From assembly GCA_016930295.1 (NCBI GenBank), contig JAFGHE010000141.1:1-40368 (forward strand): a DNA stretch of 40,368 nucleotides, in the 5' to 3' direction. This DNA comes from Sedimentisphaerales bacterium. Lineage in GTDB: Bacteria > Planctomycetota > Phycisphaerae > Sedimentisphaerales > SM23-30. Below are positions 6,384 through 38,112 of this stretch, in pieces (the first letter of the stretch is position 1; every line of letters begins with the position of its first letter). Under the pieces are notes generated by a model. It was not told the DNA's origin, did no database searches, and was given only the letters and a program-made list of their open reading frames with translations. The position numbers and the translations under genes are program-made.

Positions 6384-6484
6384 CTTCTAGGTGCCACTGT
6401 CAAAAGTGGATATTGGCACTTAAAACCGTTGTTTTTAATCCAGAAACAAGCGTTCGCAATACTTTTGACGCCGGCGTCCTTCTA
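6384..6484 (+). repeat. MITE-like element, copy 1, with 6-bp flanking direct repeats
   Basis: The element core is 6390-6478 (89 bp). Its left end GGTGCCACTGTCAAAAGT and the complement of its right end, GACGCCGGCGTCAAAAGT, match at 13 of 18 positions. It is flanked by exact direct repeats CTTCTA at 6384-6389 and 6479-6484, a candidate target-site duplication. A related element lies at 38017-38106, with near-identical ends, almost the same length and a diverged middle. Strand is given as the orientation with the TGCCAC end first. It begins 28 bp after the stop of the thymidylate-synthase-like gene. It has no coding capacity, so it would depend on a transposase elsewhere. Confidence 0.7.
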
Positions 6485-19833: not shown

Positions 19834-22800
19834 ATGAAATCCAGGGATTATCATGTCATTTCACGGTTCGTGTTTGTTTATATTTGTTTATGCCTGATAT
19901 TTCCTTCTATCGGAAGAGCCCAGCGATTTACGGCCTATCCAGGCCGTTATGAGGATCCCGCCAGCAGTGACTATATAACTACGGTTATTAATGCCGCCAG
20001 TACAGATGGCGCCGAGTGGGGGGATGATCCAACGTATATTGTTTTTTACCCATCATGGAATCATGGTTCCACGGGGCCGGATCCGGATGATACCCTTTGT
20101 TGGCTGTTCGATTATGTTTCTTCTTTGGGGGATCCTGTATGGTGGAAGGGCGAATTCGATACGGATTATCTCTGTGATCAAATATATATCCAGTTCCATG
20201 GGTGTGACAATAATGACGGTTGGGCAGATATATTTGTAGGTCAGTATAAGGCGGATCTGATCTACGAGGAAAATCCGGATTATTCGTATGATACAAAAGA
20301 TCTTACCAGTCTGGGGATCACCGTGGATAGTATTAACTTTAGCACCAATGGTGCGGTCAGGATTCAGAACCGTCCGGCGGGGGGTGATGTTTCCATTGAT
20401 TATATTGCCAAGAGTATATCTCCGGAAAAGGCGGATAATCCGCATCCCTCTGATACCGCCATCGATATATTATTAACTTACCGATTGGAATGGACCTGTT
20501 ATGATAATTATTTTACGGACTCATTCAAGGTATATTTCGGCACAGATCCTACCCCGGATTCCACGGAATATAAAGGTAACCAGACCGGTAAATATTATCA
20601 TGTTTCCAATTTGGACCCGGGTACGACCTATTATTGGCGGATTGATTCGGTCAATCCGTTTGGCATCAAGACGGGGGATGTCTGGAGTTTTACAACGAAA
20701 CATTCGCCCGAAGAACCCAATAATTGTTATCCTGAAGATGAAGAAATCGGTGTGAGCATCGATACCTTTTTAAGCTGGGATCCGGCGATGTATGCGGATC
20801 ATTATAAAGTGGTTTTAACCTGTGCATGTTGTGTTTGTCCGGATCCGGTTGAAGTCGTTTATGATCCTCATTATGATACATATGTAGACCCTGACCTTGA
20901 ATATGGCCGTATATACGAATGGTATGTCGAGGCTCATAATAATGTAGGATTGACAGAAGGTTGTCGGGGCACATTTACCGTAGAAAATATCCTGCCCGGC
21001 CAGGCTCATACACCCACTCCGGCGGATGGTGATCCGGGAGTTGATAAAGACCTTGCGTATTTGGAATGGGTGAAGGGTGAGAATGCTATATACTCAGATA
21101 TATATTTCGGGACCAATCCTGTTCCGGGGCCGTCTGAATTTCAATGGCGAACGGCAGGTACGACAGATTTGGTTTACGGATCATTAGAATATGATACTCC
21201 CTATTATTGGCGTATTGATTCAGTGAACGGTGATTTTATCACCGAAGGAGAGGTGTGGAGCTTTACTACCGGGACACTCAATGTACTTTCTCCCAATGGC
21301 GGAGAAGTTATCCAGGGTAATACGATTTATCCTATCGAGTGGGAAACGTATGGACCTATTAGTTCCGTGGACATTGAGTATTCAACCAATAATGGTGCAG
21401 ACTGGGCGCCGGTAAGTCCGCCCAACAGCGGCAATAGCGGCAGTTACAGTTGGACCGTCCCCCTGATGGATATTCAGCTGGATGAGTGCCTGGTACGAGT
21501 GAGTGATGCCTATGATCCGATGGCCAATGATATCAGCGATGATCTGTTTACGATTCTGGGGCCGCTGCATGTACTAGATCCTAATGGCGGTGAGCTTATT
21601 GACTGTGGGATGACGTATACCATCGAGTGGGAGACACTCGGTGGGGCGGCCATATCGGATGTATTGATTGATTATTCCATAGATGACGGCAACAGTTGGC
21701 TGCCGGTGGATATCGGCAGCATCCCCAACACAGGCAGTTATGAATGGCTGGTGCCTTTAATGGACGAGGATGAAGAGGAATCCTTGATACGAATCAGCGA
21801 TTATGCCGATCCGTGTGTCTATGATACCAGTGATAAGGTATTTAAGATTCGGGCGGCGGATCTGAATATTACGGTTCCCAATGGGGGTGAAAGGCTATTG
21901 GTCGAGGATCCCTATACCATCGAATGGACGACGATTGGTATTGTGGATGAGGTTGTTATAGAGTATTCCACCAATGGAGGATTCGACTGGAATCCGGTAA
22001 CTCCGGGTAGTATAGCCAATGAAGGCTATTACGAATGGGAAGTGCCCAATACACCTTCTAATAACTGTCTGATTAAGATATATAATCCGTCTCATCCATT
22101 AACCCTTGATATCAGTGATGATGTTTTCCAGATATACAGTCTCCGCCTGTTATGGCCGACCGGAGGTGAAAATCTTACGGCGGCCGTAACCCATACGATT
22201 ACATGGGAGACGAAAGGTGATCCTGGTGATGTACCTTTGGTGAATGTACGTTATTCTTTGGATAGTGGTTTACACTGGTATTCAGTGGTACCGCCCAATA
22301 GTGGCAACGATGGGGCGTATGACTGGATAGTCCCTGAAATGGAAACTGATACCTGTCGGATAAAAATCATTGACGGATCGAATCCGGGCAACTGGGATGT
22401 CAGTGATAATTTCAATATTATCTTTCCCGTTTTAACCTTGCTTTCCCCGAACGGCGGAGAGGATTATACCTGCGGTACCACACCCACAATCACCTGGAAC
22501 ACGTTCGGGATTGTCAACGATGTGATCGTGGAATATTCAATCAATAACGGACTGACATGGAGTGAGGTGTCTCCGGCCAATTCCGGAAACAGCGGTTCTT
22601 ATAGTTGGCTGGTCTGGACCCGTTCCTCCGATGAATGCCTGGTACGAGTAAGATCAGGCGGCGGGGTATTCACTTCGGATACCAGTGATGATGTGTTTAT
22701 TTGCCGGGCGACCTTTGAGGTGCTTGATCCGGATGGCGGAGAGGATATCCTGACCGGGCCGGACAAGATGTATCCTATCCTCTGGGAGACGATAGGAATC

Positions 22801-25116
22801 ATTGATAATGTGACCATTGATTACGGTTATCAGGTTTGTGACGGGACCACCTATGTGTCCATCGAATCTTTGACCGAAAATACGGAATATTATGAATGGA
22901 GTTTACCTATATTTAATAGTCATCAATGTCTGATTCGCTTAAGTGATCCGAATAGCGCATTGAGCATTTCAAATATCAGCGATGATTACTTTACCATCTA
23001 CGAATGCCAGGAGGAGGTTGACCTGGACGGCGACTGCCTGGTGGGAGTGGAGGATTTAAGGATACTGGCCGATTTCTGGTTGTCGGAAGACTGCATTGAT
23101 CCAAACCTGTGTACGATAGTTGATTTTGACCTAAGCAGTTATATTGATCTGTATGATTTTTCATATCTGTCACATCACTGGCTCATATTCTGTGGCAGTC
23201 CTTATGATCCGATATATGATTATTGTCCGACGCCCTGGCCGGAATGCTGGAATTATCCCACGCAATGTCACGGGGATGCAACGGGTGATGCGTTTGTCGA
23301 TCAAACAGATCTTGATCTTTTGACGGAATCCTGGCAGCATCACCGGCCTTTGCCTTGCTATAATATCTGTGCTGATTTTGATCATGATGGTGTGGTAAAT
23401 CAAAATGATTTAAATATTTTGGTGGCGTATTGGGAAATTTTGCCTCCTCCGCTGGGACCGGGTATACCTGAGGATTGCCAGCGGGGCGATCTGTGGCCTC
23501 AGCCTGAAGGTCCCTGCGGTCTTCCACCCTGGCAGATATGTGTTGATAATGACGCTGATGGTTTTGGTGCACCACCGAACAGTACCTGTTGTTCGGAATT
23601 GCTGGACTGTAATGATTTTGATCCGACGATTTATCCCGGTGCTCCTGAGATCTGTGACGGCCTGGACAATGACTGCGACTCGATTATAGACAATAAGGAT
23701 TTTGATGAGGATGGGCATATCGACGAGGCCTGTGGGGGCGACGATTGCGATGACAACGATCCCAATATCTATGCCGGCGCCCCTGAGGTATGTAATGGGA
23801 TCGACGATGATTGTGATGATATTATTGACAACAAGGATGCGGACGAAGATGGGCATATCGATGAGGCCTGTGGGGGTGATGATTGTGACGATTCCGATGA
23901 GGATCGGTATCCGGGCAATCCGGAAGTCTGTGACGGAGTGGATAATGATTGTGATGATATTATTGACAATAAGGATGCGGATGAAGATGACTATATCGAC
24001 GAGGCCTGCGGGGGCGATGACTGTGATGATTCTGATGAGGATGTGAATCCGGCTATGGATGAGATTTGCGGTAACGGTAAAGATGACGATTGTGACGGCA
24101 CGGCCGAGAATAAGGATGCGGATGAAGATAGCTATATCGATGAAGCCTGTGGGGGAGATGACTGTGATGATTCTGATGAGGATGTGAATCCGGGTGTAAA
24201 TGAGATCTGCGGTAATGGTATTGATGATGACTGTGATGGAATCGCTGAAAATAAGGACTTGGATAGCGATTTGCATATTGACGAGGCGTGTGCCGGCGGG
24301 GATGACTGTGATGATACGAATTCGGATGTCTATACTGGGGCGCCGGAGATCTGCGACGGCCTGGATAATGACTGCGATGATATAATTGATAACACCGGAG
24401 TTGCCGAAATTTGCGATAATGACATCGATGATGACTGCGATACGTTTATCGACTGTGATGATTCGGATTGCGGGTGTAGCGATCTGGATGGTGATGATTA
24501 CGGAGATCCGGCCAATGTTTGCTGTTTGTATGAGGAATGGGACTGTGATGATTCCGATCCGGATGTAAATCCGGGGATGGAGGAAATCTGCGGCAACGGT
24601 AAGGACGATGATTGCGACGGCACGGCGGACAACAGAGATTTTGACGAAGATGGCTATATTGATGAATTATGTGGCGGAGATGACTGTAATGATGTCAATC
24701 AGGATATTTACCCCGGCGCGCCGGAACTGTGTGACGGCCTGGACAATGATTGCGATGACATCATCGACAATCCCTCTCCGGAAGTGTGTGATAATGGCCT
24801 GGATGATGACTGTGACGGATATATAGACTGCGATGACCTGGACGACAATTGTGACCTTGATCCTTATTGTGATTGTCCATGTAATCCGGATATCGATCGT
24901 GACGGGGATGTAGATGGTGACGATATAGATGCTTTTCAGGCGTGCTATATGCTCTATTGTCCGGAAGCTGATTTAAACTGTGACGGTCATGTATGGCCGA
25001 ATGATTTATCCATATTACTAAATATCTGGGCTTGCCTGGGACTGGATCCGGAAGACCCGGAAGCTTCCGCGCCGGTAGGCGACGGCATCGCCTGCTGCCT
25101 GATGGTACGGCCCTGA
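19834..25116 (+). CDS. Giant secreted modular protein: FN3-like, Ig-like, dockerin-like and MopE-type repeats
   Basis: A 1,760-residue exported protein. Modules in order: signal peptide (1-30); a jelly-roll-like N-terminal domain (about 31-195); three FN3-like modules (about 198-480), two with TYYWRIDSVN or PYYWRIDSVN; six ~95-residue Ig-like repeats (about 481-1055), each opening with a variant of LxVLxPNGGE and containing VxIEYSxNxGxxW, SYxWxVP and a DxSDDxF ending; dockerin-like EF-hand pairs (about 1063-1118 and 1145-1205); Cys/Asp-rich MopE-type metal-binding repeats (about 1236-1678); and a final dockerin-like pair (about 1683-1740). The MopE part has 46-47-residue units with DCDDxDxDxxPGxxEICxxxxDxDCD. 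Calcium binding is expected from the DxDxDG loops. GGGAG at 8-bp spacing fixes the start. No cell-surface anchor is obvious at the C-terminus. Confidence 0.85.
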   Translation: MKSRDYHVISRFVFVYICLCLIFPSIGRAQRFTAYPGRYEDPASSDYITTVINAASTDGAEWGDDPTYIVFYPSWNHGSTGPDPDDTLCWLFDYVSSLGDPVWWKGEFDTDYLCDQIYIQFHGCDNNDGWADIFVGQYKADLIYEENPDYSYDTKDLTSLGITVDSINFSTNGAVRIQNRPAGGDVSIDYIAKSISPEKADNPHPSDTAIDILLTYRLEWTCYDNYFTDSFKVYFGTDPTPDSTEYKGNQTGKYYHVSNLDPGTTYYWRIDSVNPFGIKTGDVWSFTTKHSPEEPNNCYPEDEEIGVSIDTFLSWDPAMYADHYKVVLTCACCVCPDPVEVVYDPHYDTYVDPDLEYGRIYEWYVEAHNNVGLTEGCRGTFTVENILPGQAHTPTPADGDPGVDKDLAYLEWVKGENAIYSDIYFGTNPVPGPSEFQWRTAGTTDLVYGSLEYDTPYYWRIDSVNGDFITEGEVWSFTTGTLNVLSPNGGEVIQGNTIYPIEWETYGPISSVDIEYSTNNGADWAPVSPPNSGNSGSYSWTVPLMDIQLDECLVRVSDAYDPMANDISDDLFTILGPLHVLDPNGGELIDCGMTYTIEWETLGGAAISDVLIDYSIDDGNSWLPVDIGSIPNTGSYEWLVPLMDEDEEESLIRISDYADPCVYDTSDKVFKIRAADLNITVPNGGERLLVEDPYTIEWTTIGIVDEVVIEYSTNGGFDWNPVTPGSIANEGYYEWEVPNTPSNNCLIKIYNPSHPLTLDISDDVFQIYSLRLLWPTGGENLTAAVTHTITWETKGDPGDVPLVNVRYSLDSGLHWYSVVPPNSGNDGAYDWIVPEMETDTCRIKIIDGSNPGNWDVSDNFNIIFPVLTLLSPNGGEDYTCGTTPTITWNTFGIVNDVIVEYSINNGLTWSEVSPANSGNSGSYSWLVWTRSSDECLVRVRSGGGVFTSDTSDDVFICRATFEVLDPDGGEDILTGPDKMYPILWETIGIIDNVTIDYGYQVCDGTTYVSIESLTENTEYYEWSLPIFNSHQCLIRLSDPNSALSISNISDDYFTIYECQEEVDLDGDCLVGVEDLRILADFWLSEDCIDPNLCTIVDFDLSSYIDLYDFSYLSHHWLIFCGSPYDPIYDYCPTPWPECWNYPTQCHGDATGDAFVDQTDLDLLTESWQHHRPLPCYNICADFDHDGVVNQNDLNILVAYWEILPPPLGPGIPEDCQRGDLWPQPEGPCGLPPWQICVDNDADGFGAPPNSTCCSELLDCNDFDPTIYPGAPEICDGLDNDCDSIIDNKDFDEDGHIDEACGGDDCDDNDPNIYAGAPEVCNGIDDDCDDIIDNKDADEDGHIDEACGGDDCDDSDEDRYPGNPEVCDGVDNDCDDIIDNKDADEDDYIDEACGGDDCDDSDEDVNPAMDEICGNGKDDDCDGTAENKDADEDSYIDEACGGDDCDDSDEDVNPGVNEICGNGIDDDCDGIAENKDLDSDLHIDEACAGGDDCDDTNSDVYTGAPEICDGLDNDCDDIIDNTGVAEICDNDIDDDCDTFIDCDDSDCGCSDLDGDDYGDPANVCCLYEEWDCDDSDPDVNPGMEEICGNGKDDDCDGTADNRDFDEDGYIDELCGGDDCNDVNQDIYPGAPELCDGLDNDCDDIIDNPSPEVCDNGLDDDCDGYIDCDDLDDNCDLDPYCDCPCNPDIDRDGDVDGDDIDAFQACYMLYCPEADLNCDGHVWPNDLSILLNIWACLGLDPEDPEASAPVGDGIACCLMVRP
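23692..24387 (+). repeat. Tandem 138-141 bp coding repeats (MopE-type units)
   Basis: Successive AAT/AAC-AAG-GA(T/C) unit starts fall at 23692, 23830, 23968, 24109 and 24250, spacings of 138, 138, 141 and 141 bp. Units are close at DNA level (AAGGATGCGGATGAAGATG and GAGGCCTGTGGGGG recur), implying recent duplication. A more diverged partial array continues to about 24870. It is coding throughout, in frame, with no loss of phase. Confidence 0.8.
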
Positions 25117-38010: not shown

Positions 38011-38112
38011 TATTATGACGCCAGCGTCAAAAGTATGTTAAAGTTTTGATTCTGACTCATTAAGCCTATTTTTACGTTGGTAAGATTGACTTTTGACGGT
38101 GGCATCTATTAT
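38011..38112 (-). repeat. MITE-like element, copy 2, with 6-bp flanking direct repeats
   Basis: The element core is 38017-38106 (90 bp). Read on the minus strand it starts GATGCCACCGTCAAAAGT, and the complement of its other end is GACGCCAGCGTCAAAAGT: 18-bp terminal inverted repeats with only two mismatches. TATTAT occurs at 38011-38016 and 38107-38112, exact direct repeats that fit a target-site duplication, though TATTAT is low complexity. Its ends match copy 1 (6390-6478); the middle has drifted. The right-hand TATTAT overlaps the sulfatase-fold gene's stop codon. Confidence 0.75.

Follow-up and report, generated by a model that had tools for sequence, protein, structure and literature searches.

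A high-copy MITE family in a Sedimentisphaerales-related genome shares its ends with an IS1182-like insertion sequence

The short element that occurs twice in the window (the whole stretch of 40,368 bp that was analysed; Table 1) is a member of a MITE family with many copies in the host genome. It is very probably a non-coding element (~89 bp) in which a short spacer is flanked by both ends of an IS1182-like insertion sequence, served by a transposase in trans. Briefly, the transposase would come from a full-length element of this type and would recognise the GAYGCCnnCGTCAAAAGT ends and join them to AT-rich, mostly intergenic DNA via a 6-bp staggered cut, after which gap repair would leave the 6-bp duplication. 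A preliminary description of the window had proposed a non-autonomous transposable element family, and this proposal is upheld by the many copies, by their 6-bp duplications and by the presence in related genomes of full-length insertion sequences that agree with the family both in their ends and in the length of the duplication. The family, left unnamed at that stage, can be given a partner element that is, judged by its transposase sequence, IS1182-like.

Copies, ends and target sites in the host genome

The terminal inverted repeats are 18 bp long and paired at 13 of 18 positions in copy 1 and at 16 of 18 in copy 2. Recomputation thus reproduced the pairing previously given for copy 1, and the exact CTTCTA reported on either side of it was seen as well. 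The second copy had been described as having the same ends and the same length; the ends agree, but the length differs by one base pair, and the interior of copy 2 belongs to a different subfamily, so that it is mainly the ends that are common to both. An 18-bp inverted repeat (at least 13 of 18 paired) enclosed by two copies of a 6-mer is found twice in the window; 150 random windows from a Markov-1 model contained 0.04 such cases on average and never more than 1. Elsewhere in the window (19834-25116), a 1760-aa ORF contains eight matches to the MopE-type metal-binding motif (PF11617) and has repeats spaced about 138-147 bp.

Table 1. Positions of the two MITE copies and their parts in the window.
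Feature	Position	Strand
Target-site duplication CTTCTA, left, copy 1	6384..6389	.
MITE copy 1, 89 bp, subfamily A; left end GGTGCCACTGTCAAAAGT	6390..6478	+
Left terminal inverted repeat, copy 1; consensus GATGCCACCGTCAAAAGT	6390..6407	+
Right terminal inverted repeat GACGCCGGCGTCAAAAGT, copy 1	6461..6478	-
Target-site duplication CTTCTA, right, copy 1	6479..6484	.
Target-site duplication TATTAT, copy 2	38011..38016	.
MITE copy 2, 90 bp, second subfamily; left end GATGCCACCGTCAAAAGT	38017..38106	-
Target-site duplication TATTAT, copy 2, other side	38107..38112	.

The host genome (G000) is a Sedimentisphaerales-related draft of 4,229,061 bases in 329 contigs that is 88.6% complete. Right ends with no more than two mismatches were found in it 231 times (reversed-pattern control, 0), and the further copies by which the preliminary description had suggested judging the family are therefore present genome-wide. 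The left-end pattern gave 409 matches, but with two mismatches allowed it picks up right ends as well; the copy number is therefore reasonably put at roughly 200, with a density of about one copy per 18 kb. Most copies measure 88-92 bp and are without coding capacity. Many are 95-99% identical to copy 1, the median nearest-neighbour identity among copies is 96.6%, and certain copies are clearly degraded or one-ended. Grouping of 90 unique insertions at 80% identity yielded sets of 72 and 18. In a third type (L052, L056, L207, L221 and L224), the left half contains a hairpin, CCCGGCG...CGCCGGG, which the MITE may have acquired as a small palindrome of separate origin.

The 90 unique insertions are the places listed by the searches and not a random draw. 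The 6-bp target duplication is exact in 48 of them and has one base different in another 21, whereas shuffled pairing of the flanks (2000 trials) gave a mean of 0.62 and a maximum of 5 exact duplications. The flanking duplications expected at other copies from the preliminary description are hence present at most insertions. The duplicated 6-mers vary between sites, and the targets are AT-rich with a symmetric avoidance, few G occurring at the first and few C at the last position. An empty site is available as well, since the copy in L007 lies within another repeat whose sibling in L226 is without a MITE. When the flanks in L007 were rejoined by removal of the element and one duplication, they aligned with L226 at 82% identity over 92 bp, and the gap-free junction indicates that the element inserted as a unit. 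The interrupted repeat is a second short repeat with TTTCGCA...TGCGAAA ends (L226:922-1010; L007 around 1440-1625), and the similarity of its ends to those of the L061 IS1634 element suggests that it may be an IS1634-derived MITE. Only 10 of the 90 insertion points fall in ORFs (at least 100 codons, element removed), and such ORFs make up 80% of that sequence. The scarcity of intragenic copies is consistent with selection against insertions in genes and is not evidence of function.

Partner element and distribution in related genomes

The partner is an insertion sequence of ~1.9 kb, found in related genomes, that has GAYGCCnnCGTCAAAAGT ends and a DDE transposase. The element in G022 is 1895 bp long, with the ends GATGCCTGCGTCAAAAGT and GATGCTGGCGTCAAAAGT on either side of a 576-residue transposase (P0001), and its relative in G167 (1917 bp; ends GATGCCAGCGTCAAAAGT and GATGCCGACGTCAAAAGT) encodes a transposase that is 68% identical to P0001. 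The transposase genes or gene pieces of G116 and G141 have upstream of them the end GATGCCACCGTCAAAAGT, which is the same as the consensus of the MITE left end. The ends of the MITE and those of the P0001-type elements match at 18 of 18 bases. The interior of the MITE beyond these ends matches no full-length element seen, and this comparison lends no support to an origin by simple internal deletion of a full-length element.

Profile searches with P0001 returned PF13751 (51.7 bits) and, as the best match in NCBIfam, IS1182 (NF033551) with 132 bits. As this score lies below the family cut-off of 270 bits, the transposase is called IS1182-like and not IS1182, although IS1182 is still its best family. 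Residues D151, D346 and E478 are invariant in five aligned proteins, including a relative from Microvirga and an annotated IS1182 protein from Streptomyces.

The flanks of the full-length elements were compared as left and right ends, and the 6-bp pairings in G001 and G022 join contig ends by inference. For G001, 17 of the 528 left-right combinations match over exactly 6 bp, with a 6-bp partner for 12 of the 16 left ends; several of these matches are runs of A. Seven of the right ends used for G001 came from other genomes, and these gave no match. The corresponding figure for G022 is 6 of 105 combinations, and pairing at offsets of 3 or 6 was 0 in both genomes. The sole complete copy of the insertion sequence with both flanks (L200) is without a duplication.

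The full-length transposase gene with the same ends, proposed earlier as an object of search, is thus present in related genomes, and none is assembled in the host. A P0001-type gene was likewise found assembled in no searched genome of the host's GTDB family; for this reason, mobilisation of the MITE in trans by such a transposase is inferred. The gene may be absent from the host or only missing from its assembly, as the bin is 88.6% complete and short-read assembly loses multi-copy elements, as in G001 and G022.

End-pattern matches were counted in other genera of the host's GTDB family (G004, 178; G007, 118; G008, 80; G001, 57; G009, 7) and in another family of the same order (G022, 29); in G001 and G022, most of them are ends of the longer element, located at contig ends. 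Among named records, the two-ended pattern was found in Phycisphaerae and Sedimentisphaerales MAGs. In six genomes that have P0001-type genes, the MITE pattern occurs once, in G141; this genome has copies of the transposase gene, and its one MITE-like element lies between TAGAAT duplicates. Neither the two-ended pattern nor relatives of P0001 were found in viral contigs, and the search of plasmids with P0001 returned distant relatives only (best full-length one, 31% identical). As a tentative extension, the partner might represent a distinct group next to IS1182, with GAYGCCnnCGTCAAAAGT ends and 6-bp duplications, whose ends have given rise to MITE expansions independently in several genera of a single planctomycete family while the transposase is rare or comes from outside the lineage.

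Alternative explanations

The MITE could instead be moved by an IS1634-family transposase resident in the host, which is improbable. IS1634 elements also make duplications of 5-6 bp, and the host has two genes of this family (303 and 338 bits). A MITE left end lies directly upstream of the one in L061, whose own end contains GGTCAAAAA, a partial resemblance. In addition, an IS1634 MITE with 6-bp repeats is already known from Methanosarcina barkeri (PMC3852290). The measured ends of the L061 element, however, are TTCGCACTTGGCGGTCAAAAA, nested within a MITE copy, and not GAYGCCnnCGTCAAAAGT, the L066 gene is flanked by a different repeat of 94 nt, and the agreement at 18 of 18 bases is with the P0001-type elements. 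The ends of the resident IS1634 elements (TTCGCACTTGGCGG...) do not match those of the MITE. The L061 element (L061:638-2649, G000:C18, to the contig end) appears to be inserted in a MITE copy, 36 bp from its left end, with its right junction cut off by the contig end. In L066 (1586-3778, G000:C102), the inverted repeats around the IS1634-family gene are 96% complementary and unusually long for IS ends. The DDE_Tnp_1 genes of the host were also considered as partners and rejected, none of the six matches lying between MITE-type ends.

A dead relic family, whose transposase has since been lost from the lineage and whose MITEs no longer move, would accommodate the missing P0001-type gene in the host and its family as well as the degraded and one-ended copies. 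It is nevertheless rather unlikely in view of the high identity among copies, of the fact that about half of the duplications are exact, and of the incompleteness of the bin together with the dropout of multi-copy elements from short-read assemblies. The inverted ends, the mostly intergenic position and a hairpin in copy 2 could also suggest a structured non-coding RNA, a REP or a terminator-like repeat with incidental flanking 6-mers. As a sole explanation, this is refuted by the duplications, which far exceed the chance level and vary between sites, and by the empty site; given also the transposase-bearing elements with the same ends and an Rfam search of the window without a match, such a repeat is extremely improbable. 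Secondary structure as the function was rejected, copy 1 folding only slightly better than shuffled sequences (z -1.67). REP elements are palindromes of 20-40 bp tagged at one end with GTAG or CGTC (PMC3733652); a REP element was ruled out by the length of ~89 bp, the two transposon ends and the 6-bp duplications.

Comparison with known systems

The analysis documents a high-copy MITE family in a planctomycete group and ties it to a transposase type by its ends and its duplication length. The MITE/IS family accounts for many of the breaks between contigs in drafts of related genomes, and its insertion sites form a clean set for the study of target choice. The literature search found no MITE family described for this planctomycete group, and a search with the end sequence gave no transposon paper among its eight matches, judged by title. 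MITEs of the IS1182 family are already known (PMC3852290), and what is mildly unusual here is limited to the 6-bp duplication and the divergence of the transposase.

P0001 has its best match in the IS1182 family (NF033551), whose annotated relatives share the DDE residues and are similar in length; identity to the compared relatives from Streptomyces and Microvirga is only 26-33%. The ISMac2 (IS1182 family) MITEs of Methanosarcina acetivorans are likewise non-coding, with inverted ends of ~25 bp and an assigned IS1182-family partner; they measure 160-169 bp, occur in 7-14 copies and have direct repeats of 4 or 0 bp (PMC3852290), whereas the planctomycete family is shorter (~89 bp), has more copies (roughly 200) and makes 6-bp duplications. 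IS1272, of the same broad transposase family as the planctomycete partner, inserts by replacing inverted-repeat targets, without a canonical duplication (PMC5678879); the planctomycete MITE, in contrast, duplicates 6 bp at AT-rich sites that are not palindrome-specific. The ISMba11 (IS1634 family) MITE of M. barkeri is 247 bp long, with 6-bp direct repeats and inverted ends of ~20 bp (PMC3852290). It thus resembles the planctomycete MITE in its 6-bp repeats and inverted ends, but the latter is only ~89 bp long, is assigned to another transposase family and does not match the ends of the IS1634 elements in its host.
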